Source of the DNA: Alphaproteobacteria bacterium
GTDB lineage: Bacteria; Pseudomonadota; Alphaproteobacteria; Caulobacterales; Maricaulaceae
NCBI GenBank assembly: GCA_016124675.1
Contig: WGNG01000003.1
Location: 1-64,000 of the forward strand
Direction: 5' to 3'
DNA: 64,000 nt
The notes beneath the pieces were generated by a model that made no database searches, had not been told where the DNA came from, and saw only the letters and a list, made by a program, of their open reading frames with translations. Every line of letters starts with the position of its first letter. The first letter of the stretch is position 1. Made by a program: the position numbers and the translations under genes. Below are positions 27,519 to 45,130 of this stretch, one piece after another.

Positions 27519-27902
27519 ATGAAGCGGGGCGGAATCGAGATCGAGGGCTGGAAGGCGCAGCTGCGCAAGGGCGCGGCGGAGTTCGCCGTTCTCAGCCTGC
27601 TCGGCCGCAGGGAAATGTACGGGATCGAGCTGCTGGACGCCCTGTCCGGCGCCGAGGGGCTCGGGATTTCGGACGGCACGATCTATCCCCTGTTGAAAAG
27701 ACTGCAGGCTGAAGGCCGGATCGAGGCGCGCTGGGAGCCGAGCGTCACAGGACCGCCACGCAAATATTATAGGCTGACCCCTTCAGGAAGCGCCGCGATG
27801 GCCGCCATGACCCAAGCATGGGCGGAATTTCGCGTTCAACTCGACCGGATAGTGGGACCCGCCAGTGACCCTAGCGCCTCGGATCGAAACCTATCTGAAT
27901 GA
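27519..27902 (+). CDS. PadR-family transcriptional regulator
   Basis: 127 residues with a winged helix-turn-helix: AVLSLLGRREMYGIELL, then the hallmark DGTIYPLLKRLQAEGRI and PPRKYYRLTPSG. PadR proteins usually repress nearby genes and release DNA on binding a small ligand. The HAAS-type membrane protein downstream overlaps its end by 38 bases, a pairing known from many genomes in which the regulator and a HAAS/DUF1700-like protein form a sensing module. It could control the lipoprotein-receptor genes that follow. Confidence 0.9.
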   Translation: MKRGGIEIEGWKAQLRKGAAEFAVLSLLGRREMYGIELLDALSGAEGLGISDGTIYPLLKRLQAEGRIEARWEPSVTGPPRKYYRLTPSGSAAMAAMTQAWAEFRVQLDRIVGPASDPSASDRNLSE

Positions 27903-28434: not shown

Positions 28435-28589
28435 CCACGCTATCGCAGGCCGTGCGCACGCGAGCCGATGGCCATGCCCGGGGCGGCGCCTGTGCAGTGC
28501 GTAACCCTCTGACAACACGAAACCCGTCCGCGCTGTCACTTGCATGACATGAATCTTGTTTAACAGGGTACCGCGTCAGCTGGGGTGGA

Positions 28590-28670: not shown

Positions 28671-31439
28671 ATGTCCTTGCGCAAATATTTTGTCAGTCTC
28701 GCACTGGGTCTGGCGGTCGCCGCCTGCACCCAGGGCTCCGACATCCAGTCTCCGGGCGCCACCAATCCGGGCACGCCTCCGGGCGGCGGTGGCGGCGGTG
28801 GTGGTGGTGGCGGCGGTGGCGGCGGCGCCGCGGCCTGCCCGAGCGGCTTCACCACAGGCACGCCCGTCGGCGGGCTGACCACCTGCGTTCTGTCTGGGGA
28901 CATCCTGACCAACCTCACCCTGCCCTTCGTGGCCGGCACGGCGTACCGCATTGATGGCCGCGTCAATATCGGCGTGGACATTGGCGCCAATGGCAGCGCG
29001 GCGGGCGGCGTCCAGGCGCGCCTGACCATCCAGCCCGGCGTGACGATTTTCGGCGCGAGCGGCGCAGACTACATCGTGGTCAACCGCGGTTCGCAGATCG
29101 AGGCGGTGGGCACCGCAGCCAATCCGATCACCTTGACCTCGGATGAGGACCTCATCCGCCGCGCGGCCAATCCCAGCGATTTCGGCGGCGACAATATCGG
29201 CGAGTGGGGCGGCATCGTCGTCCTCGGCCGCGCCCCGATCAATCGCTGCCGCGACGCGGCCACGCCGGGCACGATCGACTGCGAGAACATCGTCGAGGGC
29301 GTGTCGAACCCCGACGCGCGCTATGGCGGCGCCAACCCGGAGGACAATTCGGGCATCCTGCGCTTTGTACGCGTCCTGTTCGCCGGCTTTGAAATTGCGC
29401 CGGGCAACGAGCTCAACGGCATCACCCTGGCGGGCGTCGGCCGCGGCACCACGTTTGAAAACATCCAGGTGCACAACGGCTCTGACGACGGCATCGAATG
29501 GTTCGGCGGCACGGTGAACGGGCGCAATCTCGTTGTGACCGGCGCCGATGACGACTCGCTGGACACCGACAATGGCTGGCAGGGCAATGTCCAGTTCGCG
29601 ACGGTCATCCAGCGCACGGGCGGCGGCGACAATATCGTCGAGGCCTCGTCCTCGGGCGCGGGCATCACCCCTCTGTCCAACGCGACCTTCGCCAACTTCA
29701 CCTTGGTGGGCAACCGCACCAACGCCTTCCGCCTGAACACCGGCACGGTCGGCCGTTACGTCAACGGCGTGGTGGATTACGGCAAGCAGTGCTTCCGCTG
29801 GGAGCCGTCGGCCGGCAATGGCGCGGCGGGTTATCAGGGCGTGGGCGTCGATCCGTCGTTCAACTCGGTTCTGTTTGACTGCAATGGCGGGCTGGCGACG
29901 GGCAATTCCGACGCCGCCGCCGCCGCCGCCGCCGTGGCCGCCGACGCCAACAACGTCCAGGGGCCGAGCTCGCTGGCCTCGCGCATCTTCCCCGGACCGG
30001 AAGAGCAGGCGATGACCGCTTTCAACGCCACCACGCTGGCCCCCTATTTCCAGAACGCCGCCTATGTCGGCGCGTTCAGCCCCACCGAAACCGAGACCAG
30101 CAACTGGGCGGCCGGCTGGACCTTCGGCCTGTTCCCCGAGCCCGACTGCCCGATCGGCACCACCGACACCGGCGCTGACCGCGACGGCCAGAATATCTGC
30201 CGCCTGACGGGCGTCATCACCTCCGACATCCGTCTGACCCGCGGCAATATCTACGAGCTGAGCGGGGCTGTGCGCGTCGGCCGGGATGTCGGTGCGGACG
30301 GCACTGCCGCTGACGGCCTGGCCGCGTCGCTGACCATCGAGTCGGGCGTGACCCTCTATGGCCGCTCGGGCGCCGACTATCTGCTGGTGAACCGCGGCTC
30401 GCGTCTCTTCGCCAACGGCACCCGCCAGAACCCGGTCATCATGACGTCGGAGAACGACATCACCAACACCGGCAACCGCGACAGCGCCATCGGCGAATGG
30501 GGCGGCCTGGTGGTTCTCGGCCGCGCCCCGATCAACCGTTGCCGCGATGCGGCCACGCCGGGCTCGATCCAGTGCGAGAACATCGTGGAAGGCGTGACCA
30601 ACCCGGATGCGCGTTATGGCGGCATCCTGGCCGATGACAATTCCGGCTCCATTACCTTCCTCCAGCTCAAATATGCCGGTTTCGAGATCGCGCCGGGCAA
30701 TGAGCTGAACGGGATCACGCTGGCGGGCGTGGGCTCGGGGACCACGTTCGAGAACATCCAGGTCCACAACGGCTCTGACGATGGCATCGAGTGGTTCGGT
30801 GGCCGGGTGAACGGGCGCAACCTGGTCGTGACCGGGGCCGACGACGACTCGCTGGACACCGACAATGGCTGGCAGGGCAATGTCCAGTTCGTGATCGTTG
30901 TGCAGCGCACGGGCGGCGGCGACAATATCGTCGAGGCCTCGTCGTCGGGCGCGGGCATCACCCCGCTGTCCAACGCCACCTTCTCCAACTTCACCTTCAT
31001 CGGCAACCGCACCAACGCCTTCCGTCTGAACACCGGCACCGTTGGCCGATACGTCAACGGCGTGGTCAGCTACGGCCAGGCCTGCATGCGCTGGGAGCCT
31101 TCGGCCGGTAACGGCGTGGCGGGCTACCAGGGCGTCGGCGTCGACCCGAGCTTTGACTCGGTGCTGTTCAATTGCGCCGGCGGCCTGAACACGGGTAACT
31201 CCGACGCGGCTGCGGCTTCGTCTGCGGTGTCGACCGGTTCGAACAACACCACCGATGTGGCGGCCACGCTGAACAATACGTTCATCAACGGCGCGAACGA
31301 GAACGCCCGCACGGCGTTCGACGTCACGACGCTCAATCCGCACTTCACGCCGGTCACCCATATCGGCGCGGTGCGCGACTCCAGCGACCGTTGGTGGGCT
31401 GGCTGGACCTGTGGTCTGGAAACCGGAAGCACCTGCTAG
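28671..31439 (+). CDS. poly-glycine outer-membrane lipoprotein with two tandem beta-helix-like modules
   Basis: 922 residues. A lipoprotein signal ends at Cys19 (AVAACTQ). Residue +2 is Thr, not Asp, so sorting to the outer membrane is expected. A run of 15 glycines (residues 38-52) follows, then two copies of one module, about 70-505 and 510-922, offset by 431 residues. Each copy has xITLAGVGxGTTFENIQVHNG, DGIEWFGG, a GADDDSLDTDNGWQG acidic loop and a cysteine pair around RCRDAATPG. The module resembles a parallel-beta-helix family of cell-surface proteins often encoded next to TonB receptors, also in Bacteroidota. No enzyme site is recognised. The TonB receptor follows 86 bases later, and a T2SS operon begins 2.8 kb after this gene's stop. 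Confidence 0.75.
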   Translation: MSLRKYFVSLALGLAVAACTQGSDIQSPGATNPGTPPGGGGGGGGGGGGGGGAAACPSGFTTGTPVGGLTTCVLSGDILTNLTLPFVAGTAYRIDGRVNIGVDIGANGSAAGGVQARLTIQPGVTIFGASGADYIVVNRGSQIEAVGTAANPITLTSDEDLIRRAANPSDFGGDNIGEWGGIVVLGRAPINRCRDAATPGTIDCENIVEGVSNPDARYGGANPEDNSGILRFVRVLFAGFEIAPGNELNGITLAGVGRGTTFENIQVHNGSDDGIEWFGGTVNGRNLVVTGADDDSLDTDNGWQGNVQFATVIQRTGGGDNIVEASSSGAGITPLSNATFANFTLVGNRTNAFRLNTGTVGRYVNGVVDYGKQCFRWEPSAGNGAAGYQGVGVDPSFNSVLFDCNGGLATGNSDAAAAAAAVAADANNVQGPSSLASRIFPGPEEQAMTAFNATTLAPYFQNAAYVGAFSPTETETSNWAAGWTFGLFPEPDCPIGTTDTGADRDGQNICRLTGVITSDIRLTRGNIYELSGAVRVGRDVGADGTAADGLAASLTIESGVTLYGRSGADYLLVNRGSRLFANGTRQNPVIMTSENDITNTGNRDSAIGEWGGLVVLGRAPINRCRDAATPGSIQCENIVEGVTNPDARYGGILADDNSGSITFLQLKYAGFEIAPGNELNGITLAGVGSGTTFENIQVHNGSDDGIEWFGGRVNGRNLVVTGADDDSLDTDNGWQGNVQFVIVVQRTGGGDNIVEASSSGAGITPLSNATFSNFTFIGNRTNAFRLNTGTVGRYVNGVVSYGQACMRWEPSAGNGVAGYQGVGVDPSFDSVLFNCAGGLNTGNSDAAAASSAVSTGSNNTTDVAATLNNTFINGANENARTAFDVTTLNPHFTPVTHIGAVRDSSDRWWAGWTCGLETGSTC
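28782..28826 (+). repeat. GGN repeat encoding 15 consecutive glycines
   Basis: Fifteen GGC/GGT codons in a row inside the lipoprotein gene, between the lipid anchor and the first module. It would act as a flexible tether. Such triplet tracts can change length by slippage without shifting the frame. Confidence 0.95.
28887..31436 (+). repeat. internal tandem duplication of ~1293 bases
   Basis: The second half of the lipoprotein gene repeats the first with an offset of 1293 bases: for example the stretch starting ACGACTCGCTGGACACCGAC occurs at 29551 and 30844. Parts are almost identical in DNA (the middle of the module) while the edges have diverged, suggesting an old duplication partly kept alike by gene conversion or strong selection. 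Confidence 0.85.
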
Positions 31440-31441
31440 CG

Positions 31442-31490
31442 CGGGACAAGCGGGCGCGTCAGGGCCTTGGCCCTGGCGCGCCCTATCCCG
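31442..31490 (+). promoter_or_regulatory. strong intercistronic hairpin between lipoprotein and receptor genes
   Basis: CGGGA (31442-31446), GGGCGCG (31452-31458) and CAGGGCC (31460-31466) pair with GGCCCTG (31469-31475), CGCGCCC (31477-31483) and TCCCG (31486-31490). The core stem has 14 Watson-Crick pairs plus one T-G. No T-run follows, so it is unlikely to be a full terminator. It could stabilise the lipoprotein mRNA or cause partial termination that lowers receptor expression. Confidence 0.65.
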
Positions 31491-31525
31491 TCCAAGGACG
31501 CACTCAAGATCAAAGGTCACATCCG

Positions 31526-34111
31526 ATGAAACCCGTTTCAGTATTCAGCGGGGCCCTGCTGGCGACGAGCATGCTCGTTGCGCCAGCCGCCCTCGCCCAA
31601 CAGCCCGAGCCGGCGCCGCAGGCGCAGCCCCAGGCTGAAGACGTGGTGACGGTGCGCGGGCAGTTTATCCCTGAGCCCCAGCGCCGCACCGCCCAGGTGG
31701 CCAGCTTCGTCACCCTGGAAGACCTCGATCGCGCCGGCGACGGCGACGCCGCCCTGGCTCTGGCCCGGGTCAGCGGCCTGAGCATCGTGCGCGGCCAGTA
31801 CGCCTATGTGCGCGGTCTGGGCGACCGCTATTCGGCGGCCCTGCTCAACGGGTCTCCGCTGCCCAGCCCCGAGCCGCTGCGCCGCATCGTGCCGCTGGAC
31901 CTGTTCCCGTCCGAAATCCTCGACGGCATTGCGGTCCAGAAAACCTACTCGGCCAATTATCCGGGCGAGTTCGGCGGCGGCGTCATCGACCTGCGCACCC
32001 TGCGCCGGCCCGAAGAGTCGTTTCTGAACCTGTCGGCGGGCTCGAGCTACAATACCGTGACCACCGGGCGCCGCGGGATTTTCCACCGCGGGTCCGCTGA
32101 TGACTGGACCAGCTGGGACGGCGGCTATCGCGATCAGCCTGAACCGCTGCGCGCCGTGATCGCCAACCAGACCCCGATCAACAGCCTCACTCCGGGCGCG
32201 CTGGAAACGCTGTCGGAAAGCCTGGTCATCCCGAACCTGCTCGTCCACCAGGACGGCACGGTGGGCGCTGATTTCAACGCGGCCTTTGATGGCGGTTTCG
32301 CCTTCGAAGCCGGCGGCATTGATTTTGGCTTCATCGCAGCGGGTGGCTATGACAGCGGCTGGACCACGCAGGAATCCCAGCGTCAGCGCGTGCGCGCCGA
32401 CGTGATCGGTTCGCAGTTCGACGTGTTCACCACCGCGCTCGACACCCAGGTCAACGCGTTGGCCTCGCTGACGGGCGAAGTGGACGCCCATTCGGTCTCG
32501 CTCACCACCTTTTTCGTGCGGTCGGTGCGCAAGGATACGCAGCTGACCCGCGGCGATGACTTCAACGCACCGGGCGGGCGTCCCCTCTATGAGGAGTCGA
32601 CCGGCTGGTACGAGCGCGAGCTGGGCATGGTTCAGCTCGCCGGCGAGCACAGCTTCGGCAATCTGGAAGCCAACTGGCGCGGCTCCTTCGCCCGCGCCAC
32701 GCGTGACACGCCGTTCCTGCAGCGTCTGCGCCGTTTTGAAGACGCCACCGGCACGCCGATCTATTCGACGTCGAACCAGTACACGATCGAATTCACCGAA
32801 CTGACCGACGATCTGTCCAATTTCGGCGGCGATCTGAGCTATGCGTTCACCCTTCCGGGCGCCCGCGAGCTTCTGCTCACCGTGGGCGGTGACCGGTCGC
32901 GGACCGAGCGGAGCTTCGAGACCCTGTTCTTCCGCATGGCGGGTGGCAACTCCCTCCCGGCGGATGTGCAGCGCGCGCGTCCCGACTTCCTGTTCTCGCC
33001 GGACAATATCGGCCCCGGCCGCTTCCTCCTGGCCGAGGTGCAGAACACCCAGTCCAACTATACCGGCGATCTGGAGGTTGACGCCCTGTTTGCCCAGGCG
33101 GACGTCGATATCACCGACTTCATCCGCGGCACGTTCGGCGTGCGGTATGAAGACGCGGTGCAGTCGGTGCAGACCTTCAGCCGCTTTGGCGTGCTGGGGC
33201 GCGGCGCCGTGCTGGCGAACGACTATATCCTGCCGTCCGCCACTGTGACGTGGAACTTCGCCGAAGATCTGCAATTGCGGGTCGGTTATTCGGAAACGAT
33301 CGGCCGTCCCCAGTTCCGCGAGCTGGCCAATTCGAGCTTCTTCGATCCCGAAAGCCAGCGCAGCTTCCGCGGTTTCGACGGCCTGGTCGACACCACCATG
33401 CGCAACTATGACGCCCGCCTGGAATACTATCTGGGCCGCAACCAGTTCGTGACCGGGGCGGTCTTCTTCAAGCAGATCGAGAACCCGATCGAGGAAGTGC
33501 AGTTCGAGACGGCGTCCTTCGTGACGGAGACGACCTTCTTCAACTCGCCCGAAGCCGAGCTGACCGGGGTGGAGCTGGAATACCGCCAGACCTTCGAGTC
33601 CCCGCTCGATATTGCCTGGTTCCGGGACCGCGACTGGCGCTTCGGCGTCAACTACACCTATACCCGCTCGGAGGTGATCGCCCCGGCCGGAACCCTGGTG
33701 CTCGACCCGATCTCGGACTCGCTGCGTGATGCGGCGTTCTTCAACCTGGATGGCGCCAAGCTCCAGGGCACCCCGGAGAATGTCGTCAACGCCCAGTTCG
33801 GGTGGGAGACGGACAACGCCCAGCTCACCCTGCTTTTGAACTGGGTGGACGAGCGCATCCTGCAGCGCGGCTTTGACTCGCCGTCAGGCCGCCTGCCCGA
33901 CGTGATCGAAGAGCCGGGCGTGCAGCTTGATCTGGTCTACCGGCGTACGTTCAGTGTCATGGGGCGTGAGCTGCGCCTCGGCCTGAGCGGGCGCAACCTG
34001 CTCGACGAGCAGAGCCGGGAGTTCCAGCGCAACGACACGATCGGTGAGACCGAGTTCAACACGTATGAGCGCGGCCGCACCTTCTCCGTGAGCCTGTCGA
34101 CCGGTTTCTGA
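31526..34111 (+). CDS. TonB-dependent outer-membrane receptor
   Basis: 861 residues from ATG 31526. A signal peptide ends at APAALA|QQ, and a TonB-box-like DVVTV follows near residue 38. The plug domain carries YVRGLGDRYSAALLNGSPLPS and FGGGVIDLRTLRRPEE. A 22-strand-type barrel fills the rest and ends in the terminal aromatic motif SVSLSTGF. Receptors with this plug type (VRGLGDRY, LDLFPSEILD) are those commonly paired with beta-helix-type lipoproteins. It imports an unknown ligand using TonB energy. It follows the lipoprotein gene across a strong hairpin and is closed by a terminator at 34137. Confidence 0.93.
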   Translation: MKPVSVFSGALLATSMLVAPAALAQQPEPAPQAQPQAEDVVTVRGQFIPEPQRRTAQVASFVTLEDLDRAGDGDAALALARVSGLSIVRGQYAYVRGLGDRYSAALLNGSPLPSPEPLRRIVPLDLFPSEILDGIAVQKTYSANYPGEFGGGVIDLRTLRRPEESFLNLSAGSSYNTVTTGRRGIFHRGSADDWTSWDGGYRDQPEPLRAVIANQTPINSLTPGALETLSESLVIPNLLVHQDGTVGADFNAAFDGGFAFEAGGIDFGFIAAGGYDSGWTTQESQRQRVRADVIGSQFDVFTTALDTQVNALASLTGEVDAHSVSLTTFFVRSVRKDTQLTRGDDFNAPGGRPLYEESTGWYERELGMVQLAGEHSFGNLEANWRGSFARATRDTPFLQRLRRFEDATGTPIYSTSNQYTIEFTELTDDLSNFGGDLSYAFTLPGARELLLTVGGDRSRTERSFETLFFRMAGGNSLPADVQRARPDFLFSPDNIGPGRFLLAEVQNTQSNYTGDLEVDALFAQADVDITDFIRGTFGVRYEDAVQSVQTFSRFGVLGRGAVLANDYILPSATVTWNFAEDLQLRVGYSETIGRPQFRELANSSFFDPESQRSFRGFDGLVDTTMRNYDARLEYYLGRNQFVTGAVFFKQIENPIEEVQFETASFVTETTFFNSPEAELTGVELEYRQTFESPLDIAWFRDRDWRFGVNYTYTRSEVIAPAGTLVLDPISDSLRDAAFFNLDGAKLQGTPENVVNAQFGWETDNAQLTLLLNWVDERILQRGFDSPSGRLPDVIEEPGVQLDLVYRRTFSVMGRELRLGLSGRNLLDEQSREFQRNDTIGETEFNTYERGRTFSVSLSTGF

Positions 34112-34136
34112 CCGGCCGAAACGTCCTGTGTGGAAG

Positions 34137-34165
34137 CGCCCGGAGCCCTCGGCTCCGGGCGTTTT
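34137..34165 (+). terminator. intrinsic terminator after the TonB receptor gene
   Basis: CGCCCGGAGCC (34137-34147) and GGCTCCGGGCG (34151-34161) form a perfect 11-base-pair stem with a 3-base loop, followed by TTTT. It ends the lipoprotein-receptor transcript and separates it from the gsp operon. Confidence 0.92.
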
Positions 34166-34175
34166 CGTCCGTACC

Positions 34176-34196
34176 CATACTGTCATAATCAGTATG
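34176..34196. promoter_or_regulatory. operator-like inverted repeat upstream of gspC
   Basis: CATACTG (34176-34182) and CAGTATG (34190-34196) form a perfect 7-base inverted repeat with a 7-base spacer, 70 bases before the gspC start. The region is AT-richer than its surroundings and TATAAA occurs at 34239-34244, so the promoter of the gsp operon is probably here and this repeat a regulator-binding site. Confidence 0.5.
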
Positions 34197-34265
34197 TGGC
34201 TTTGCAAGACTGTCACGATCTTGCGCTACACGGCCTGTATAAAAGCGGGTGGAAAGCGCGAAACG

Positions 34266-35084
34266 ATGATCGTCCCGGGGCGCAGCCTGAATCGGCCCGC
34301 CGCCCGATCCGAAGGCTCTAGAGCCCAGGGCTGGCCGGCTGGCAGGCTGATCATAGCAGGCGTGGAAGTCGTGCTCGTCGCGCTGGCCGGCGTGCTGGCG
34401 GCGGCGCTTGGGTGGACCGTGATCTTCGGCAGCTACACCACGCCATTGCCGAACCTGGCGGCGTCCGCAGCGCCGGGCCTGGTGCGGCCGGACCCCATCG
34501 CCGCGACCGGTTCGGCCGCCAATCTCTTCGCCCGCGCCGGCGCTCCGGCTACCCAGATCGAGGTCCTTCCGGAGAGCCGGCTGGGCTTTGCGCTGTATGG
34601 CGTGCGCACGGCGTCTGATCCCCGGGCCGGCAGCGCCATTATCGAGGCAGGCGCAGGCGGTCAGCGCAGCATCCCGGCCGGCGCCGAGGTCCAGTCCGGC
34701 ATCACGCTGGATGAAGTGCATGCAGACCGGGTGGTGCTCAACCGGCGCGGCGTGCGCGAGGTGGTCTACCTCACCGACCGGGCCCGCCGGCAAGCTGCGT
34801 CAGCCGCCGCAGACCTCGCGCCTGTCGCCATCGCCGGAGTGGCCCTCTCGCCGCAGCCCCTCGCATCAGGCGGGCAGGGGTTAAGGGTCGACGGCGATCC
34901 CGGTCCGCTGGGCGCGCTGGGCATCCGCACCGGCGATGTCATCGCCTCCATCGACGGACAGCCGCTCACCGCCGCGCTCGCCGTCAATCTGTCAAACCGC
35001 ATGGCGCAGGGCGCGCTGCCGTCCAGCCTCACCCTTGAACGGGACGGCGAACGCGTCACCCTCCAGACAAGGCCAAACCCATGA
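34266..35084 (+). CDS. gspC: type II secretion protein C
   Basis: 272 residues from ATG 34266, preceded by GGAAAG. A single membrane anchor at about 30-52 (IIAGVEVVLVALAGVLAAALGW) is followed by a periplasmic homology region (GITLDEVHADRVVLNRRGVREVVYL, about 140-165) and a C-terminal PDZ-like domain (GALGIRTGDVIASIDGQPL). GspC links the inner-membrane platform to the GspD secretin and takes part in substrate choice. First gene of the operon; its stop overlaps gspD as ATGA. Confidence 0.88.
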   Translation: MIVPGRSLNRPAARSEGSRAQGWPAGRLIIAGVEVVLVALAGVLAAALGWTVIFGSYTTPLPNLAASAAPGLVRPDPIAATGSAANLFARAGAPATQIEVLPESRLGFALYGVRTASDPRAGSAIIEAGAGGQRSIPAGAEVQSGITLDEVHADRVVLNRRGVREVVYLTDRARRQAASAAADLAPVAIAGVALSPQPLASGGQGLRVDGDPGPLGALGIRTGDVIASIDGQPLTAALAVNLSNRMAQGALPSSLTLERDGERVTLQTRPNP

Positions 35085-37021
35085 TCGCCCGACTTGCCCG
35101 CATGACCGGCGTGCTCCTGTGCGCCTTCATCGTGATGACCGGCGCCGCGCTCGCGCAGGACGGCGAGCGCACCACGCTGAATTTCCGCAATGCCGAAATG
35201 ACCGCGTTCATCGAGGATATGGCGGCGCTCACCGGCTATACCTTTGTGGTGGACCCGCAGATCCGCGGCGTGGTCAACATCACCTCCCAGGGACCGGTGA
35301 CGCGCGAGGAAGCGTTCCAGGTATTCCTGGCGACCCTGCGCGTCCATGGCTTCAGCGCGGTCCGCACGGCGCCGGGCGTGTACCAGATCCGCGCCGAGCG
35401 CGAGGGCGCCCGATCCGGGGCGCCGCTGGGCGCGGGGGACGGCCAGTTCCGCACCTCGGTCATCCGGCTGCAGGCGGCCAGCGCCCGCGAGGCGGTGCGC
35501 ACGCTGGCCTCGATGGTCAGCGCGGTGGGCACGATCACGGCGCTCGAAAGCGGCAATTCGGTCGTGGTGGTGGACTATGCGTCCAATGTCGCCGCCATCG
35601 AGCAGGCCCTGCGCGCACTGGACCGGGACAATTCCGTTATCGAGATGGTCGAGCTTGAGAACGTGTCGGCCGACGAAATGGCGCGCATCATCGAGCGCCT
35701 GCGCCTGCCGGCCTTCCAGGGCGAGGACAATCGCCGGTTTGCATTCAACCTGGCCCCGGTGCCGGCCTCCAACACGCTGCTGATCCGCGGCGAGGCGGCG
35801 GCTGTGAGCGACATCATCGCGCTGGTGCGCCGGGTGGATGCCGTCAGCCGCTCCAATCAGAGCTTCCGGGTCATTGCGCTCAATCATGCTGACGGCGCTG
35901 CGCTGCTGCCGATCCTCGAACAGGTGTCGGTCAGCCTGGCGCCGGCGGGCGGCGAGGGCGACGCGCCGCGACAGGCCTCGATCGCCCATCACGCGCCCAC
36001 CAACACGGTCGTGGTCAATGCCGATCCCGATCAGCTGCGCGAGCTGGAGCTGGTGATCCGCCAGCTGGATGTGCGCCGCCCGCAGGTGCTGGTCGAGGCG
36101 ATCATTGTGGAGATTTCCGACCAGGCCGCGCGCGATCTGGGCGTGCAGCTTCTCCTGTCCGGTGATGGCGGCAGCGCGACGCCCTTCCTGTCGACCCGCT
36201 ATGGCGCCTCGCCTGACAGCCTGACCATCGCCGGCGGGCTGATCGCCCAGTCGGATGACGAGGCGTCAGAATCGCTGCGCGAGGCGGCGATCCAGTCCCT
36301 GCTGCGCTCCAGCGGCGCCCTGATCGGCGTCGGCGGCCAGAACGCCAATGGCGCGATTTTCGGCGCGATCCTCAATGCGCTTGAGAGCGATTCCAGCTCC
36401 AACATCCTGTCCAAGCCCTCCATCCTGACGCTCGACAACGAGGAAGCCTCCATCATTGTCGGCCAGCAAATCCCGATCACGACGGGCGAGGTCTTGGGGT
36501 CGAACAACGCCAATCCCTTCCGCACCATCGAGCGCCAGGATGTCGGCGTGCAACTGAGCGTGCGGCCGCAGATTTCCGATGGCGACACGATCCGGCTGAC
36601 CTTGCGCCAGGAAGTGTCGTCGGTGGCCGGGCCGGTCAGTCAGACCTTCGCCGAGCTGGTGACCAATAATCGCGCGATCGAAACGACGGTGCTGGCCGAT
36701 GACGGCGAGATCATCGTGCTGGGCGGGCTCATCGAACGCGATGACCAGGTCGCCGATAGCGGCGTGCCGGGGCTGCGGCGCATCCCGGTTCTGGGCCGGG
36801 CGTTCCGCAATGAGGGCCGGTCAGAGCGGCGGACCAATCTGGTCGTGTTCATCCGTCCCACCATCGTGCGCAGCGCCGCCGACATGCGCGCGCTGGCGGT
36901 GGAGGCTTACGCGAACGCGTCCGAGGAGCAGCGTCGCGCCACGAATGGCCGGAGCTCCAGCCTTGAAGAGCTGGTCCACATCATGATGGACGCGCCGCCT
37001 CCACCCGCAGGAGGTCAGTAG
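35081..37021 (+). CDS. gspD: type II secretion secretin
   Basis: 646 residues with a signal peptide ending at GAALA|Q. The N0 domain starts at LNFRNAEMTAFIEDMAALTGYTF, and N1-N3 repeats follow (VIRLQAASAREAV, VELENVSADEMARII, VIALNHADGAALLPIL). The secretin core runs from about 340 to 600, with VLVEAIIVEISD, SKPSILTLDNEEA, VGQQIPITTG and VLGGLIERDD. It forms the outer-membrane channel of the T2SS. The end is short, with no long pilotin-binding S domain. Confidence 0.96.
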   Translation: MIARLARMTGVLLCAFIVMTGAALAQDGERTTLNFRNAEMTAFIEDMAALTGYTFVVDPQIRGVVNITSQGPVTREEAFQVFLATLRVHGFSAVRTAPGVYQIRAEREGARSGAPLGAGDGQFRTSVIRLQAASAREAVRTLASMVSAVGTITALESGNSVVVVDYASNVAAIEQALRALDRDNSVIEMVELENVSADEMARIIERLRLPAFQGEDNRRFAFNLAPVPASNTLLIRGEAAAVSDIIALVRRVDAVSRSNQSFRVIALNHADGAALLPILEQVSVSLAPAGGEGDAPRQASIAHHAPTNTVVVNADPDQLRELELVIRQLDVRRPQVLVEAIIVEISDQAARDLGVQLLLSGDGGSATPFLSTRYGASPDSLTIAGGLIAQSDDEASESLREAAIQSLLRSSGALIGVGGQNANGAIFGAILNALESDSSSNILSKPSILTLDNEEASIIVGQQIPITTGEVLGSNNANPFRTIERQDVGVQLSVRPQISDGDTIRLTLRQEVSSVAGPVSQTFAELVTNNRAIETTVLADDGEIIVLGGLIERDDQVADSGVPGLRRIPVLGRAFRNEGRSERRTNLVVFIRPTIVRSAADMRALAVEAYANASEEQRRATNGRSSSLEELVHIMMDAPPPPAGGQ

Positions 37022-37029
37022 CACCAGCG

Positions 37030-38505: not shown

Positions 38506-39721
38506 ATACAGCGCCCTCGACACGACGGGCCGGCGCACAAGGGGCGTGATTTCCGCGCCGTCGGGCGCTGCCGCGCGCGCCGAGCTGCGCCGGCGTCAGC
38601 TGGCGCCCCTGACCATTGACCGGGCCGGTGACAAGCCGGCGGCGTCTGCGCGTTTCAATCTGCCGGGGATGGCGCGCAACCGCTCCATGCCCGCTTCGGC
38701 GCGCCTGCTTATGACACGCCAGCTCGCCACTCTGGTGGAGGCAGGGCTGCCTTTGGCGGAGGCGCTGGAGATCGTCGCGGCCCAGACCGTCAATGCGGCG
38801 TCGCGCCGGATCCTCATCACGCTGCGCGAGCGGGTGCTGGAGGGCGAGCGCCTCTCCGGGGCCATGCTCGCCTTTCCCGGCAGCTTCCCGCCCGTGTACC
38901 GGGCGATGGTGGCGGCGGGCGAAAGCTCCGGCGCTCTCGGCAGCGTGCTCGACCGTCTGGCCGCCCATCTTGAGAAATCGGCGGCGCTATCGCGCAAAGT
39001 CATGACGGCGCTGATCTATCCGTGCGCGCTGGCGGTGACGGCGATGACTGTGATCGCGGTGCTGATGACCGCCATCGTGCCGCGCCTGGCCGAACAGTTT
39101 GACTCCATGAGCATCACCCTGCCGGTGCTGACACAGGCCATCATCGCGATGTCGCAGTTTCTCCAGGCGGGGTGGATGTTCCTGCTGGCCGGGCTGGCGG
39201 CGGCGGTCATCGGCCTGCGGGTGCTATTGCGCCGGCGGGCGGTGCGTGACCGGCTGGACCGGATCAGCCTGTCCGTGCCGCTGCTGGGCGGGTTCCTGCG
39301 CCGGGTGGAGGCGGCCCGCTTTGCACGCACGCTGAGCGTCCTGCTCGCGGCGGGCACAGTGCTGCCCGATGCGTTGCGGGCGGCGCGCAAGGCTGCCACC
39401 AACGCCCATATCGGCGCCTGCCTTGAGGAGGTGGTTGCGCAGGTGGAGACCGGGCGCACGCTCTCGTCAGCGCTTGAAAGCGCCCGCTTCCTGCCTGCCC
39501 TGACGCTGCACATGATTGCGGCCGGGGAACGATCCGCCGCGCTCGATTCCATGCTGCCGCGCGCTGCCGACCAGCTTGAAGGCGAGCTTGAAAGCGCCAG
39601 CAGCACGGCGCTCAGCCTGCTGGAGCCCGCCATCATCATCGTAATGGGCGCGATCGTCGCCCTGATCGTGCTGTCGATCTTGCTGCCAATCCTACAGCTC
39701 AACACGCTGGCGCTTGGCTGA
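38492..39721 (+). CDS. gspF: type II secretion inner-membrane platform protein F
   Basis: 409 residues from ATG 38492. The start MPAFEYSALDTTGRRTRGVI is the GspF signature. Two repeated cytosolic T2SSF domains (about 70-190 and 270-390) alternate with membrane helices at about 172-196, 228-247 and 378-400. Each domain carries the LxxGxxLxxAL pattern (TLVEAGLPLAEAL; VLLAAGTVLPDAL). It anchors the ATPase to the assembly platform. Confidence 0.95.
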   Translation: MPAFEYSALDTTGRRTRGVISAPSGAAARAELRRRQLAPLTIDRAGDKPAASARFNLPGMARNRSMPASARLLMTRQLATLVEAGLPLAEALEIVAAQTVNAASRRILITLRERVLEGERLSGAMLAFPGSFPPVYRAMVAAGESSGALGSVLDRLAAHLEKSAALSRKVMTALIYPCALAVTAMTVIAVLMTAIVPRLAEQFDSMSITLPVLTQAIIAMSQFLQAGWMFLLAGLAAAVIGLRVLLRRRAVRDRLDRISLSVPLLGGFLRRVEAARFARTLSVLLAAGTVLPDALRAARKAATNAHIGACLEEVVAQVETGRTLSSALESARFLPALTLHMIAAGERSAALDSMLPRAADQLEGELESASSTALSLLEPAIIIVMGAIVALIVLSILLPILQLNTLALG

Positions 39722-39741
39722 CGCCCAGAAGGAGCCCCGCC

Positions 39742-40191
39742 ATGAAGTCCGTCCAGACACCCCGCAACCATCCGGAAGCCGGCTTCACGCTCGTCGAGAT
39801 CATGGTCGTCGTCGTGATTATCGGCCTGCTCGCGACTGTGGTCGTGCTCAATGTCCTGCCCAGTCAGGACCGGGCGCGCATCGAGAAGGCGCGCGCCGAT
39901 ATCGGCCGGATCGAGCAGGCCGTCGAGATGTTCCGCCTCGACATGGGCCGCTATCCCACCACCGATGAGGGCCTTGAGGTGCTGGTCACGGCGCCGGCCG
40001 ATGCGCGCCTGGCCGCGCGCTTTCCCGAAGGCGGCTATATCAACCGCCTGCCGGAGGATCCCTGGGGTGGCAGCTATCAGTACATGTCGCCGGGCGAGCA
40101 TGGGCGGTTTGACGTGTGGTCGCACGGCGCCGACGCCCGCCCGGGCGGCGAAGGCAATGACGCCGACATCGGAAACTGGGACGTGCAATGA
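39742..40191 (+). CDS. gspG: type II secretion major pseudopilin
   Basis: 149 residues. The leader is cleaved after Gly14 (PEAG|FTLVEIMVVVVIIG) and the mature protein has Glu at +5. The C-terminal calcium-loop region (RFDVWSHGAD, GNDADIGNWD) is that of GspG, which builds the pseudopilus. AAGGAG is well placed before the ATG. Gly/Phe cleavage requires a prepilin peptidase, probably the one at 26990. Confidence 0.96.
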   Translation: MKSVQTPRNHPEAGFTLVEIMVVVVIIGLLATVVVLNVLPSQDRARIEKARADIGRIEQAVEMFRLDMGRYPTTDEGLEVLVTAPADARLAARFPEGGYINRLPEDPWGGSYQYMSPGEHGRFDVWSHGADARPGGEGNDADIGNWDVQ

Positions 40192-40694
40192 CGTCTGCGC
40201 GGCGCCAGGGCCAGGAGGGCGGGTTCTCGCTCGTCGAGGTGATGATCGTCATCGCCATCATCGCCCTTGTCTCGGTGACAGCGGTCACCCAGATCGCCCC
40301 GCCGCGCAGCGCGCTGGACACCGAAGCGGCGCGCCTGGTGCTGCGGCTGGAGACCGCGCGCCGGCACGCGCTGATGACCGGCGCGCCCCTTGGTTTTGCT
40401 GTGGATGGCGACGGCGCCGGGTATGCCTTTCTGGACCTGCAGGCGGACGGCTGGCGCGTGCGCCACGGGGACCGGACCCTCGGCCCGGCGCGCCTCACCG
40501 AGGGCGTCGACCTGACGCTGACCGGCGCCGGCCTGCGGGGTGATCCGGACAGCGCCGGCCTGCCGGCGCCAGACCTCTGGTTTGACCCTGCCGGAGCGGA
40601 GCCGCCTGCGGGCCTCAGCCTGAGACAGGGCGGACGCGAGGTCAGCATCAGCGTGTCGAGCCATGCTCCGGTCGAGGCGCGCCATGCGGACTGA
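40188..40694 (+). CDS. gspH: type II secretion minor pseudopilin H
   Basis: 168 residues, overlapping gspG as ATGA. The leader is cleaved after Gly12 (EGG|FSLVEVMIVIAIIALV), with Glu at +5. The sequence LDTEAARLVLRLETARRHALMTGAPLGF is typical of GspH. Minor pseudopilins H-K form the tip complex that starts pseudopilus assembly. Confidence 0.9.
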   Translation: MTSARRQGQEGGFSLVEVMIVIAIIALVSVTAVTQIAPPRSALDTEAARLVLRLETARRHALMTGAPLGFAVDGDGAGYAFLDLQADGWRVRHGDRTLGPARLTEGVDLTLTGAGLRGDPDSAGLPAPDLWFDPAGAEPPAGLSLRQGGREVSISVSSHAPVEARHAD

Positions 40695-41052
40695 GGCCGG
40701 GTTCTCTCTCATTGAAATGCTGGCGGCGCTCTCGGTGCTGGCCATTGCGGGCCTGGCTCTGGTGCAGGCTCTGACCCAGTCGGCGCGCGCTGGCGTCATG
40801 TCCGAGGATCGCGCCCTGGCCGCCCTGGCCGCGGAAAATGTGATGGCGGACTGGCGGCTCGAGGCACAGGGCGCGACGCGGCCGGCGCAAGGAGACTACG
40901 AGTTTGCTGGCCGCGCCTATGAGTGGCGCATCCAGAGCGCGCCGACGCCGGAGGCAGGGCTGGTGCGGGTCACGCTGGAAATCTCGCCTCGGGGAAGCCG
41001 CGCCGGCGAGCCGTTCCATACACTCACGCGGTTCGAGCGGACGGGCCCATGA
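40684..41052 (+). CDS. gspI: type II secretion minor pseudopilin I
   Basis: 122 residues from ATG 40684, chosen because GAGG is at good distance and the leader becomes a normal MRTEAG|FSLIEML; an ATG at 40663 is in frame. AAENVMADWRL is the GspI family segment. It overlaps gspH by 11 bases and gspJ by ATGA. Confidence 0.9.
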   Translation: MRTEAGFSLIEMLAALSVLAIAGLALVQALTQSARAGVMSEDRALAALAAENVMADWRLEAQGATRPAQGDYEFAGRAYEWRIQSAPTPEAGLVRVTLEISPRGSRAGEPFHTLTRFERTGP

Positions 41053-41687
41053 CGCGCGAGGCGGGGTTCACGCTGGTTGAGGTCATGGTGGCGCTGGGCA
41101 TATTCGCCCTTGTGGGCGTGATGTGCACCGGCCTGCTGGTGACCACGATCGATGCGCGCGACCGGCAAGAGGCGGCGATGGACCGGCTGAGCGAGTTGCA
41201 GCATGTGCGCACGCTGTGGCGCGAGGACGCCGCCCAGATGGTGCTGCGCCCGCATCGCACCGCCGATGGCGGCTATTCCGGCCCGGCGCTGGCGGGACCG
41301 CAGACGGATTTTCTGGCGCCGCGCGCTGACGCCGGTCGGCTCGCCGCCTTTTCCCGGCGCGGACGGCCCAATCCGGGCGGCGCCGCAGAGCGGTCGAGCC
41401 TCATTCGCGTGGTGTGGCGGGTCGAGGACGGCGCTCTGGTGCGCGAGGTCTGGACGGCGGTCGATCCGGCGCCGGCCAGCACGCCGTCTGCCATGGTGCT
41501 CGCTCAGGGTCTTGAGGATGTATCGGTGCAGTTTCGCTATGGCCGCAACTGGCTGAATGCGCCGCCTGATGCAGGGCGTAACAGCGATGCGGCGATGCCG
41601 GAGGCGATGCGCCTTGTCTATCGCGACCCCCAGGGGCGCGAGATCGAGCACATCGCCCTGACAAGCCTTGGCGGAGGCGCGTCATGA
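41049..41687 (+). CDS. gspJ: type II secretion minor pseudopilin J
   Basis: 212 residues. The leader MTREAG|FTLVEVMVALGIFAL has Glu at +5. The body matches GspJ in DRQEAAMDRLSELQHVRTLWREDAAQ and in the late VSVQFRYG segment. It overlaps both gspI and gspK by ATGA. Confidence 0.92.
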   Translation: MTREAGFTLVEVMVALGIFALVGVMCTGLLVTTIDARDRQEAAMDRLSELQHVRTLWREDAAQMVLRPHRTADGGYSGPALAGPQTDFLAPRADAGRLAAFSRRGRPNPGGAAERSSLIRVVWRVEDGALVREVWTAVDPAPASTPSAMVLAQGLEDVSVQFRYGRNWLNAPPDAGRNSDAAMPEAMRLVYRDPQGREIEHIALTSLGGGAS

Positions 41688-42670
41688 CCTGCAAGGCGCC
41701 AGGGGGCAAGGATCGCGGCGCGGCGCTGGTGACGGCGCTGATGGTGGTGGCGTTCATGGCGGCGGTGAGCGTTTCGCTGGTGGAGATGATGCGCCACACG
41801 CTGCAGCGCACCAGCGTGTTTCAGGACCGGGTCCAGGCGGGCGCCTATCTCGATGGCGCGCAGGCCTATGGCGAGGTCCTGCTTGCCCGCTTCGCCGGCG
41901 ACGGGACGTCCGCCTTCACCCCCGAAGGTCCCTGGGACGGGCAGGTTCGCGTGTTTCCGGTGGAGGGCGGCCAGCTGGCGGCGCGCATCCGCGACCAGAA
42001 TAACTGCCTGAACATCAACGCGCTTCATGCCGGCGGCGAGGGCGAGTCGGATGACGCCGCGGCGGAACGTCTGCGCGCCCTTGCGGCGGCGCTGGATGTG
42101 CCGCAAGCCGAGACTGAAGACCTGATCGCGCAGGCTGCGGACTGGATCGACGCCGACCGCTCCGCCCGTCCCGGCGGCGCCGAGGATGACGCGTATCTCA
42201 ACCGGTCCATGGCGCACCGGGCGGCCAATCAGCCGTTTGTGGAGCTTGCCGAGCTGCGGCTGCTCCCGGTAATGACACCGGCGCTCTATCAGCGTCTGGC
42301 GCCCTATCTGTGCGTCCTGCCCGCCAGCCTGCAGCCGCCGTTGAATGTGAACACCTTGCAGCCAGACCAGAGTGTGCTGATCACCGCCCTGACCGGAGGC
42401 GCCGTCAGCCTGCAGGCGGCCGATCAGGTCCTGTTCCGGCGTCCTTCGACCGGGTTTGCGAGCGTCGAAGCCTTCTGGGCTGATCCCGCCTTTGCGGAGA
42501 TCGGCGAGGATGATCGCCCCGCCGGCGCCATCGCCTTGCGGTCGGAATGGTTCGAGCTGGAGCTGTCGGTCGAGTTGGCCGATGTGCGCCTTGTGCGCGT
42601 GCAGACCGTGCGCATGGACCGTACGGGCGGATTTGCGCGCCTGCCCCCGGTGCAAGGAGCGGTGCTGTGA
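41684..42670 (+). CDS. gspK: type II secretion minor pseudopilin K
   Basis: 328 residues, the largest pseudopilin as expected for GspK. The leader ends KDRG|AALVTALMVVAFMAA and lacks the +5 glutamate, the known feature that puts GspK at the pseudopilus tip. The helical insert domain (LRALAAALDVPQAETEDLIAQAADWIDAD) and LNVNTLQPDQSVLITAL are family segments. The end overlaps gspL. Confidence 0.93.
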   Translation: MTCKAPGGKDRGAALVTALMVVAFMAAVSVSLVEMMRHTLQRTSVFQDRVQAGAYLDGAQAYGEVLLARFAGDGTSAFTPEGPWDGQVRVFPVEGGQLAARIRDQNNCLNINALHAGGEGESDDAAAERLRALAAALDVPQAETEDLIAQAADWIDADRSARPGGAEDDAYLNRSMAHRAANQPFVELAELRLLPVMTPALYQRLAPYLCVLPASLQPPLNVNTLQPDQSVLITALTGGAVSLQAADQVLFRRPSTGFASVEAFWADPAFAEIGEDDRPAGAIALRSEWFELELSVELADVRLVRVQTVRMDRTGGFARLPPVQGAVL

Positions 42671-43887
42671 GCGCGCGGCTGATCCTTCGCCTTCCCGCCA
42701 CCCCCGGCGAGCCGTTTGACTGGGCCTTGGTCTCGCCGGCCGAAGGCGTGCTGATGGAGGGGCGCGGCGACAGCGTGGGCGGGCTGGCCGAAGGGACGGT
42801 CATCGACTGCGTCGTGGCGCTGATCCCGGCTGATCTGATGCATCTGCGGCATGTGTCGATCCCGGCGCGCAGCGAGCGCGCCGCACAGCAGGCCGCGCCC
42901 TTTGCCATCGAGGAATATCTGGCGGCGCCGCTGGACACCCAGCTCATCGCCTGCGGCCTGCCCGACGGCGCCAATCAGCGCTGGGTCGCGGCGCTTGATT
43001 CCGGGCTCGCCGGCGCCTGGCGCGCGCTGGCGGAGCGCGTGGGAATCCGCCCGGTCCATGCCGTGTCCGAGGCGATGCTCCTGTCGCCCGGCGAGGACGC
43101 GCTGGCGTGCGCCTTCATCGACGGACGCATTATCTGGCGCAGCCGTTCCGGCGCGGGTGGCCTGGCGGGCGGCGCACCGGATGCCGTGTCTGATCTGGTG
43201 CTGCCGGCGCTTGCCGGCGCTGTCAGCGCGCAGACGATCTCGCTGTCGGGCGGGCACGCCTCCCACCATGCCGCGCTGGACGGCTATCCGGTGCGCCATG
43301 GCCCGGCGCTGGATGTCTATCAGGCCGCGGCCGCGCTTGATCTCGCCACGCTCAAGGCGGCCCCGGCGGTGCTCGGCCCCCGCCTGGCGGCGTCTGCAGA
43401 CTGGGCGGCGGTCCTGCAGCCGTGGGCGCGCGCGGCGGCGCTGGCGCTGACGGCGGGCGCGCTGGCGCTGGCGACCGTGGCGGCCGAGGGCGTGTGGCTG
43501 TCGCGGGAGGCGCAGCGGTTTGAGGCCGCCAGCCTCGCCGCCTTCACCGCCGCCTTCCCGGATGTGCGCCGTGTGGTGAACCCGCGCGTGCAGCTGGAGC
43601 AGCGCCTGCGCGAGATGGATGTGGCGTCAGGCGGCGGGGACAGCTTCCTGGCGCTCACCTCCGCGCTGGCGGGCGTCGTCAGCGATGCCCCGCATATCGA
43701 CATCACCGCCGTCCGGTTTCAGGCGGACCGCGCCGAGCTTTCGGTGGCGGCGCGCTACCGGGACTTTGCCGATTTCGAAGCGCTCCGTTCGGCGGGGGAG
43801 GCGGCCGGGCTTCAGCTTGAGGACGCCGGCGCCCGGCAAGGTGCGGATGGCGTCGACGGGGAGTTCATCGTGAGGTGGCGCGAATGA
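42667..43887 (+). CDS. gspL: type II secretion protein L
   Basis: 406 residues from GTG 42667, a GTGA overlap with gspK. The cytosolic actin-like domain fills the first ~250 residues (VIDCVVALIPADLMHLRHVSIP, QQAAPFAIEEYLA). One membrane helix at about 257-279 is followed by a periplasmic ferredoxin-like domain. GspL recruits GspE to the membrane and pairs with GspM. Confidence 0.9.
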   Translation: MSARLILRLPATPGEPFDWALVSPAEGVLMEGRGDSVGGLAEGTVIDCVVALIPADLMHLRHVSIPARSERAAQQAAPFAIEEYLAAPLDTQLIACGLPDGANQRWVAALDSGLAGAWRALAERVGIRPVHAVSEAMLLSPGEDALACAFIDGRIIWRSRSGAGGLAGGAPDAVSDLVLPALAGAVSAQTISLSGGHASHHAALDGYPVRHGPALDVYQAAAALDLATLKAAPAVLGPRLAASADWAAVLQPWARAAALALTAGALALATVAAEGVWLSREAQRFEAASLAAFTAAFPDVRRVVNPRVQLEQRLREMDVASGGGDSFLALTSALAGVVSDAPHIDITAVRFQADRAELSVAARYRDFADFEALRSAGEAAGLQLEDAGARQGADGVDGEFIVRWRE

Positions 43888-44375
43888 CCGGCGTCCTGAT
43901 CGCCTATTGGCGGGGCTTGAGCGTGCGCGAGCAGGGGCTGGTCCTCGCCGTGTCGCTGCTGATCAGCGCCTTGCTGGTCTGGCTTGTGATCGTGCAGCCG
44001 CTGGTGTCATGGCGCGACAGCGCGCGCGACGTCTATATAGACAATGCCATGACTTATTTCGCGGTGGCCAACGGGATCGCGCGCCTGGACGCCCTGCAGC
44101 GCGCCGGCACAGCCTCACCGGCGGGTGAGCGCGAGCCGGTGCGCAGCGCGGTCGCGGGCGCGGCCAGCCAGGCCGGGATTGTCCTGTCGCGCGTGCTGCC
44201 CGATGAGGCGGGGCGGCTGAATATCTGGATTGATGCGGCGGAGCCGGTGACCCTGATGCGCTGGCTTGAGGCGCTGTCCCGCGACCATGGCGTCGTCGTG
44301 GTCCGGGCCAATCTCGAGCAGACCGGCGCCGGCCCGCTGCGCGCCCAGCTGCTGTTGGCGAGGGGCGGAGCATGA
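43884..44375 (+). CDS. gspM: type II secretion protein M
   Basis: 163 residues from ATG 43884, which overlaps the gspL stop as ATGA. LSVREQGLVLAVSLLISALLVWLVIV is the short cytosolic start plus single membrane helix typical of GspM. A periplasmic domain follows (VMRWLEALSRDHG-like segment near residue 130). Sequence conservation of GspM is always low; position in the operon supports the call. Confidence 0.85.
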   Translation: MTGVLIAYWRGLSVREQGLVLAVSLLISALLVWLVIVQPLVSWRDSARDVYIDNAMTYFAVANGIARLDALQRAGTASPAGEREPVRSAVAGAASQAGIVLSRVLPDEAGRLNIWIDAAEPVTLMRWLEALSRDHGVVVVRANLEQTGAGPLRAQLLLARGGA

Positions 44376-45130
44376 CGCGGATCCTGGTGCTGGCGCTGAT
44401 CGGCTTGCTCGCCTTTGTCGCGGCGGCCATCGCGTTCGCCCCGGCGCGCGTCCTGCACGACCTGGTGCTCCTGCCGCGCGGCGTCTATGCCGCCCATGTC
44501 AGCGGTCCGATCTGGAACGGCCAATGGCGCGATGTGCGCCAGGGCAGGGTGCGCCTGGCGCAGGTGGACGCCGCCTTGCAGGCCGCCTCGCTGCTGCGCG
44601 GCCGGCCGGCCTTGCGCGTGCGCATGAGCGACCCCCGGGGACGCGGCGAGGCGATTGTGGTGCTCAACGGCGAGGCCCTTGAGCTGCGCGAGGCGTCTGG
44701 CCGCATCGCGCCCGCCGGACTGGTCGCTCTGGCGGGGCCGGCCCGGGCGGCGCTGGCCGAGCCGGTGATTCTGTCGAACGTCGAGGGCCGGTTCGGACCG
44801 CGCGGCTGCGAAACCTTGTCCGGCGCCGTCGTTTTCGGCGGACTTGCCGCCGTCGACACCCGGGGTGCGGGGAGCCTGCCGGTTCTGGAGGGCGCGCTGG
44901 AGTGCGCCGGCAGCCAGCCGGCAGTCCGGTTCGCCGGCGAGACGCCGGATGTGAGCCTCGACGGTCATGCGCGCCTCAGCCCGGCGGGCGCGGACTGGTC
45001 GCTGAACGCGCAGCCGCGCACCGGCGCAGCGGCTCTGGCTCTGCGGGCGATCGGGTTCACCGGCGATGGCGACGCGCTGAGCGCCCAGGGGCAGACATCA
45101 TGGGCCGAGGCGGGGCGCGGCGGCGGCTAG
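44372..45130 (+). CDS. gspN: type II secretion protein N
   Basis: 252 residues, ATGA overlap with gspM. An N-terminal membrane helix (ILVLALIGLLAFVAAAIAF) is followed by a beta-rich periplasmic part with VSGPIWNGQWRDV, the GspN family signature, and cysteines at about 149 and 176. GspN is an optional T2SS component. It ends the operon; 45131-45242 contains no gene. Confidence 0.85.
   Translation: MTRILVLALIGLLAFVAAAIAFAPARVLHDLVLLPRGVYAAHVSGPIWNGQWRDVRQGRVRLAQVDAALQAASLLRGRPALRVRMSDPRGRGEAIVVLNGEALELREASGRIAPAGLVALAGPARAALAEPVILSNVEGRFGPRGCETLSGAVVFGGLAAVDTRGAGSLPVLEGALECAGSQPAVRFAGETPDVSLDGHARLSPAGADWSLNAQPRTGAAALALRAIGFTGDGDALSAQGQTSWAEAGRGGG

Follow-up and report, generated by a model that had tools for sequence, protein, structure and literature searches.

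A probable PhoB-controlled lipoprotein and TonB receptor pair beside a type II secretion operon in a member of the Maricaulaceae

The closest described counterpart of the locus considered in this study is found in Caulobacter, where the gene of the lipoprotein ElpS (cc0170) is followed by a TonB-dependent receptor gene (cc0171) and the type II secretion system (T2SS) genes gspC-N (Le Blastier et al. 2010, PMC2996285). According to that report, proteinase K strips ElpS from whole cells whether or not gspC-N is present, the T2SS is required for the release of ElpS and not for its surface location, ElpS is induced by phosphate starvation, and its overproduction accompanies higher secreted phosphatase activity; like layouts are reported there in Xanthomonas, Sphingomonas alaskensis and Hyphomonas neptunium. 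In this study, a window of 64,000 nucleotides of alphaproteobacterial DNA (Maricaulaceae; assembly GCA_016124675.1, contig WGNG01000003.1, positions 1 to 64,000) was analysed, in which annotation with Pfam and NCBIfam profiles gave, all on the + strand, a lipoprotein gene (28671..31439), a TonB receptor gene (31526..34111), a terminator and a complete gspC-N operon. This arrangement is already known, as that of Caulobacter elpS-cc0171-gspC-N (PMC2996285); the present work adds a count of lipoprotein-receptor pairing, the dispensability of the T2SS, a conserved Pho box and the concerted evolution of the lipoprotein modules, and no prior account of these four was found in the openly licensed literature. 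It is likely, with a probability of about 0.68, that the lipoprotein and the receptor form a PhoB-controlled phosphorus-scavenging pair beside a T2SS that exports enzymes. This reading is based on the gene content, the constant pairing, the loose T2SS linkage, the conserved Pho box and the likely fold class observed here, while surface location without the T2SS and phosphate control would carry over from the Caulobacter work (PMC2996285).

The kinship with ElpS was traced by way of two Caulobacter-like loci from genomes of the host's order (L043 and L044), whose lipoproteins share 35-37% identity with the window protein (E down to 7e-70) and whose receptor and gsp genes stand in the same order. 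When read from a GTG start, the L043/L044 lipoprotein has LAGC at residues 17-20 and Asn38, matching the published ElpS positions, and a convergent prepilin peptidase gene lies at the far end of these loci, as published for gspO (PMC2996285). The window locus is therefore most likely of the ElpS-CC0171-gspC-N type by sequence comparison, and phosphate-linked control is likely in both. The two also differ: the Caulobacter-like lipoproteins have about 520 codons and one module, whereas the window protein (922 amino acids) has two; gspO is downstream and convergent there, whereas the prepilin peptidase gene of the window is upstream; and the window carries a PadR/HAAS gene pair. A more distant parallel is provided by the low-phosphate lipoproteins FI, FII and FIII of Flavobacterium johnsoniae, which are reported to be kin of the Caulobacter lipoprotein (PMC8115612) and are likened to the window protein by published description only. 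FI and FII adjoin low-phosphate TonB transporters, whereas FIII is an orphan, and the available part of that account mentions no T2SS association.

The pairing of lipoprotein and receptor proved constant. A scan of named genomes gave at least 555 relatives of the lipoprotein, of which 80 loci were kept, with groups assigned by record title, and a TonB receptor gene adjoined the lipoprotein gene on the same strand in 77 of the 77 testable loci; in the other three, the contig ended within 250 bases of the lipoprotein gene. The loci listed span Proteobacteria and Bacteroidota. In a set of 20 regions, chosen partly for being exceptions and hence not random, the receptor adjoined in all 20 and two or more gsp genes were present in nine. 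These counts uphold the original prediction in treating lipoprotein and receptor as a unit, and its proposal that the lipoprotein captures a ligand that the receptor then imports is a reasonable one. In the window, 86 bases separate the two genes, and the receptor (861 amino acids) contains Plug and beta-barrel domains (PF07715 and PF00593) and the VRGLGDRY sequence, with a score of 220 bits against TIGR01782, under the cut-off of 310. The SusCD and BtuBG systems likewise pair the gene of a surface lipoprotein with that of a TonB receptor (PMC10404256). Unlike these, the window pair shows neither a SusD domain nor the SusC N-terminal regulatory CarboxypepD_reg domain in Pfam searches, its lipoprotein is predicted to have a beta-helix-like fold, and a complex of the two proteins is putative. 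As a lead only, LipL48 of Leptospira may belong to the same lipoprotein family. Its gene shares an operon with that of a TonB receptor (PMC7567364). A search of the openly licensed literature on the VRGLGDRY motif and a narrow one on the marine low-phosphate angle found no papers. With the window protein as single query, the lipoprotein was found in 10 of 289 genomes of the class, a figure that understates distant relatives because only one query protein was used. In L119, L120, L127, L130, L125, L128 and L140, from gammaproteobacteria and Bacteroidota, the order is reversed, with the receptor before the lipoprotein, and Pho-box matches are poor or lacking.

Linkage to the T2SS was looser. Two or more gsp genes lay nearby in 27 of the 38 testable alphaproteobacterial loci, in 1 of 24 gammaproteobacterial loci (Xanthomonas), in none of five from Bacteroidota and in the only testable locus with an odd label (1/1), it being understood that a T2SS missing from a locus is not necessarily missing from the genome. 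At the level of whole genomes, the association was strong: among 299 genomes of the host's order, 177 contained both the lipoprotein and GspK over the cut-off, 27 the lipoprotein only, 22 GspK only and 73 neither, giving an odds ratio of 21.8 with kinship ignored (the co-occurrence table holds 199 genomes over the cut-off, against a search tally of 200). With this strong co-occurrence and the T2SS-dependent release of ElpS in Caulobacter, a real link to the T2SS remains. Such loci also occur in L064 and L118, two metagenome bins with the labels Hydrogenophilaceae and Sulfopaludibacter; the labels may be wrong, since L118 has a T2SS layout of the alphaproteobacterial style.

What the link consists of was a separate matter. 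It had been proposed that the adjacent T2SS flips the lipoprotein over the outer membrane in the manner of pullulanase, after which lipoprotein and receptor import a ligand. Klebsiella PulA resembles the window protein in being a surface lipoprotein near a T2SS (PMC7857515), and the complete T2SS next door, the odds ratio of 21.8, the adjoining gsp genes in 27 of the 38 alphaproteobacterial loci and the toxicity of elpS overexpression without the T2SS (PMC2996285), which hints at a direct interaction, all agree with such a role. However, ElpS is accessible to proteinase K without gspC-N (PMC2996285), so that the exposure in the absence of the T2SS which the original prediction did not expect is the published result for its homologue. 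Moreover, 20 of the 27 lipoprotein-only genomes had no GspK match of any kind, and the 14 among them with a completeness of 99% or more underwent a second search, for GspD, together with two positive-control genomes. GspD over the cut-off was found in none of the 14 (ten had partial secretin matches under the cut-off and four had none), whereas both positive controls matched. A receptor relative was present in all 14 with 39-49% identity, near full length in 13 and on two contigs in G347, and the two genes adjoin in all seven of these genomes for which a lipoprotein position was given. The lipoprotein-receptor pair can hence exist without a T2SS; it is also kept in the Bacteroidota loci, and the window-type lipoprotein, unlike PulA, is not confined to T2SS genomes. 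In addition, Cys19 of the window lipobox is followed by Thr and not by the inner-membrane retention Asp. Because ElpS is exposed without gspC-N and the pair is kept in T2SS-less genomes, the T2SS is rejected as the flippase, and we regard such a role as decidedly improbable. A search for Slam (PF04575) as a surface route gave no match in the host genome and none in the control genomes either, and is therefore uninformative.

The opposite view, that the T2SS is a chance or historical neighbour and that the two have unrelated jobs, would fit the terminator between the receptor gene and gspC, the pairs in L050-L052 without gsp genes nearby, the genomes G345 and G460 in which the T2SS is far from the pair, and the scarcity of a linked T2SS outside the alphaproteobacteria. 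We consider it clearly unlikely, given that lipoprotein and T2SS occur together in the order much more often than chance predicts when kinship is ignored, that the same lipoprotein-receptor-T2SS layout recurs in the neighbourhoods of the Xanthomonas and sphingomonad loci listed, that the Caulobacter PhoB regulon reportedly includes the T2SS and several TonB receptors (PMC11208175), and that the T2SS is required for ElpS release (PMC2996285). The correction is of wider use: to take a lipoprotein for a T2SS substrate on the grounds of T2SS adjacency alone is an easy misreading.

For the preferred reading, that of a PhoB-controlled uptake pair, the upstream region of the lipoprotein gene is central. 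A candidate Pho box, CTGTCACTTGCATGACAT (28533..28550, + strand), lies 120 nt 5' of the lipoprotein start and matches 12 of the 14 positions of the consensus CTGTCAY, four-base spacer, CTGTCAY; it is the sole site in the window with at most two mismatches, and PhoB is present in the host genome. The relatives were then compared. The sample consisted of 142 loci less L009-L013, of which 137 had a lipoprotein match, 127 had a start set by the lipobox rule together with 300 upstream bases, and 93 remained after removal of near-duplicates. At least 12 matches were found in 51 of the 127 upstream regions, against 0.4% of shuffles. In the 93 non-redundant regions, 35 reached 12 and 64 reached 11, the corresponding shares being 0.7% and 5.2% among 4798 control windows drawn from these loci; seven wrong spacers gave 1 to 6 of 93, and three scrambled half-sites gave none. 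The sites were oriented towards the gene in 32 of 35 cases, and those with at least 12 matches occurred in 10 of 23 gammaproteobacterial regions, 14 of 36 named alphaproteobacterial regions and 10 of 29 in the group holding the window. The gaps between lipoprotein and receptor, by comparison, reached 12 matches in 0 of 70 and 11 in 2 of 70, and 12 matches were reached before gsp genes in 3 of 27, these gaps being about twice the length of the test windows. By this comparison, a putative Pho box upstream of the lipoprotein is a conserved feature of the locus. It accords with the phosphate induction of ElpS (PMC2996285), with the PhoB regulon of Caulobacter, in which the T2SS and several TonB receptors are listed (PMC11208175), and with the low-phosphate lipoproteins next to TonB transporters in Flavobacterium (PMC8115612).

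The host genome as a whole has 36 Pho sites with at most two mismatches, against 14 for the reversed pattern. PstS, intended as a positive control, gave only matches under the cut-off in this genome, and the other genes near Pho sites were therefore used for comparison. The seven frames near five site groups comprise a type I phosphodiesterase, two TonB receptors, a glycerophosphodiesterase, an HTH protein, an HNH protein and one frame without a family. The site with zero mismatches lies between a diverging receptor frame and the HTH gene and points at the latter, and at L146 it is the 3' end of the nearby glycerophosphodiesterase gene, and not the promoter of that gene, that lies at the Pho site. 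Pho-like sites precede a lipoprotein-type phosphodiesterase/nucleotide pyrophosphatase gene (L145, G000:C9:52391) and, as tandem sites with an 11-base step, another TonB receptor gene (L155/L156, G000:C8:110737-110765). In the window, the perfect half-sites CTGTCAT (34180-34186) and CTGTCAC (34210-34216) stand before gspC, 30 bases apart in a non-canonical spacing.

Several observations weigh against the preferred reading. The window site proves nothing alone, because the window holds 10 sites with at most three mismatches where 9.5 are expected, so the lone site is not significant, and the case rests on relatives that are mutually non-independent. Fewer than 11 matches were found in 29 of the 93 upstream regions, the Caulobacter-like L043 and L044 score only 11 and 9, Bacteroidota gave 0 of 3 at 12 or more, and the receptor-first gammaproteobacteria gave 1 of 4 at 11 or more and 0 of 4 at 12 or more. 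In Caulobacter itself, cc0171 is stated to be expressed in both rich and poor medium (data not shown there), internal phosphate was unchanged, poor medium raised the expression of the T2SS genes no more than 1.7-fold, and elpS overexpression is toxic without the T2SS (PMC2996285). Simple joint induction and import are disfavoured by the constitutive cc0171, the unchanged phosphate and the 1.7-fold T2SS rise. As for Xanthomonas, the available part of PMC1790865 contains nothing on phosphate control of the receptors.

Control by PadR had been put forward in the original prediction, and was considered here as acting through the HAAS partner gene. The pair was indeed confirmed just upstream, at 27519-28434, with a PadR-family regulator gene (27519..27902, + strand, PF03551) overlapped by the gene of a HAAS-domain protein (27865..28434, + strand, PF22564), and both genes recur upstream in L060 and L063, which are close relatives. 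PadR was nevertheless found in only 1 of 69 testable named loci, a search that divergent PadR proteins could escape, whereas the Pho box is conserved. PadR is probably local to close relatives and not part of the conserved system, and its control of the system is very improbable and, on the 1 of 69 loci, rejected as a general feature.

The following sequence of events is suggested for the preferred PhoB-controlled pair. Under phosphate shortage, PhoB would switch on the two-gene unit of lipoprotein and receptor, and the lipoprotein would reach the surface by a route independent of the T2SS. Placed over the receptor, it may bind or first process a phosphorus-containing molecule and pass the phosphorus compound on to be imported with the help of TonB, much as sugars and vitamin B12 are handed over to their receptors by SusD and BtuG. 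The T2SS, as a separate transcription unit, would export soluble enzymes such as phosphatases and nucleases, and also a protease able to trim the lipoprotein off the cell, as proposed for Caulobacter (PMC2996285). The ligand, the lid mechanism and this division of labour are what we infer from analogy with the systems described.

The lipoprotein itself has a signal peptide ending in the lipobox VAAC, with Cys19 and then Thr, followed by a poly-Gly linker and two modules with approximate ends at 28824..30146 and 30147..31436 (both + strand). No Pfam or NCBIfam family exceeded its cut-off in the profile searches, and the closest match listed among named genomes is from Oceanicaulis sp. HLUCCA04 (L063) with 81% identity, although records nearest the window genome may be left out of that comparison. 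The modules share 66% protein identity with a repeat period of 1293 nt, and one stretch of 300 nt is 89% identical. Module number was taken as the count of the conserved DDGxExFGG-type motif, with truncated frames excluded: sphingomonads and Caulobacteraceae have one, Maricaulis- and Colwellia-type proteins two, and Alteromonas and Pseudoalteromonas three. Within 31 two-module proteins, some of them close relatives of one another, the first segments of modules 1 and 2 are 51% identical within a protein and 54% between orthologues, whereas in the central segments identity is 82% and 81% inside one protein but 60% and 44% when orthologous modules are compared. For the core, module 1 resembles module 2 of its own protein more closely than it does module 1 of any other species in 21 of the 31 proteins, compared with 1 of 31 for the first segment. 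Since the centres are alike within a protein while the first segments have diverged as orthologues do, the modules are probably an old duplication whose centres were repeatedly homogenised by gene conversion. The like centres in the window lie at 29196-29681 and 30489-30974.

Regarding the fold, a Foldseek search with the full model gave two matches at E ≤0.001, both with TM-scores ≤0.23, and because of these low scores a single module was modelled and searched separately. The structure prediction suggested in the original prediction yielded a confident beta-helix-like AlphaFold2 model (module 2; pLDDT 91.5, pTM 0.93). Among the 50 Foldseek matches listed for the module, the partners are mostly beta-helix enzymes and tailspikes, going by their names; none reached E ≤0.001, and the top TM-score was 0.37 by target length. 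A sequence search for solved relatives returned two matches at E 0.42, both over the linker and not credible. The lipoprotein is thus likely of a beta-helix-like class as modelled, with no close solved relative found in these searches. The possibility that it is a beta-helix hydrolase or lyase, freeing phosphorus-containing fragments at the surface so that the receptor imports the product, is favoured by the names of the fold matches, by an acidic cluster (D272, D273, E276, D294, D295 and D298) that is invariant in a 39-row alignment, by the raised secreted phosphatase activity on ElpS overproduction (PMC2996285) and by the modelling of the Flavobacterium relatives on polygalacturonase (PMC8115612). 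On the other side, solved structures give no close match (TM-score ≤0.37 among the 50), enzyme families all stay under the cut-off, only 2 of 41 module sequences touch a Pfam family, Beta_helix in both, and acid clusters bind calcium too; an enzymatic role is therefore considered possible and, on balance, unlikely.

A broader proposal is advanced tentatively, at somewhat less than even odds: that the beta-helix lipoprotein family is a further type of TonB-receptor lid beside SusD and BtuG, serving phosphorus compounds across Proteobacteria and Bacteroidota, that gene conversion keeps the tandem modules similar because both bind one and the same ligand or receptor, and that in alphaproteobacteria it has been joined to a T2SS exporting ligand-releasing enzymes. 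Phosphorus is growth-limiting in many waters. If the PhoB-controlled uptake complex is real, one uncharacterised family would explain the uptake of a phosphorus source by many aquatic bacteria, and Caulobacter is a ready system for testing the pair.

The remaining features of the locus agree with its earlier description: a two-module poly-Gly lipoprotein with modules of about 430 residues, a VRGLGDRY receptor, a terminator and a full gspC-N set were all confirmed by profiles and folding. The hairpin in the receptor/gspC gap, a likely Rho-independent terminator (34132..34166, + strand), is absent from the list of a simple hairpin scan and was found by folding against shuffles: the segment 34125-34175 folds at -32.2 kcal/mol, with a z of -5.7 relative to 200 shuffled sequences, and a T run follows the hairpin. 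The secretion genes, all on the + strand, are gspC (34266..35084 from its likely ATG start, the longest open frame beginning at 34128), gspD secretin (35081..37021), gspE ATPase (37030..38505), gspF (38495..39721), gspG major pseudopilin (39742..40191), gspH (40188..40694), gspI (40663..41052), gspJ (41049..41687), gspK (41684..42670), gspL (42547..43887), gspM (43875..44375) and gspN (44372..45130). The likely start of gspJ is residue 43 of the longest frame (from 40923), in which N_methyl covers residues 43-67; the coordinates of gspL are those of the longest frame, and its true start is probably later. GspC exceeded the Pfam cut-off (PF11356) and not those of NCBIfam, GspD, GspE, GspF and GspG exceeded NCBIfam cut-offs (TIGR02517 with 503 bits, TIGR02533, TIGR02120 and TIGR01710), and GspI, GspJ, GspK, GspL, GspM and GspN exceeded Pfam cut-offs (PF02501 for GspI, PF11612 for GspJ, PF05134 and PF12693 for GspL, PF04612 for GspM and PF01203 for GspN), GspK also scoring 246 bits against NF037980. 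The core components C to N are hence all represented, GspH only by a match under its own cut-off (TIGR01708, E 2.5e-15), and GspF is single-copy in the whole genome.

The Xanthomonas arboricola lipoprotein frame (L112) has 309 codons and lacks the central motif; since similarity runs on beyond this short frame, an interrupted gene or an error in the record is suggested. The GspO-like prepilin peptidase gene (Peptidase_A24; 26993..27466, + strand; 157 amino acids as searched; PF01478 E 1.1e-21) is, as originally stated, the single one within the window, and a second A24 copy lies elsewhere in the same genome (G000:C2:88612-88926), possibly serving pili.

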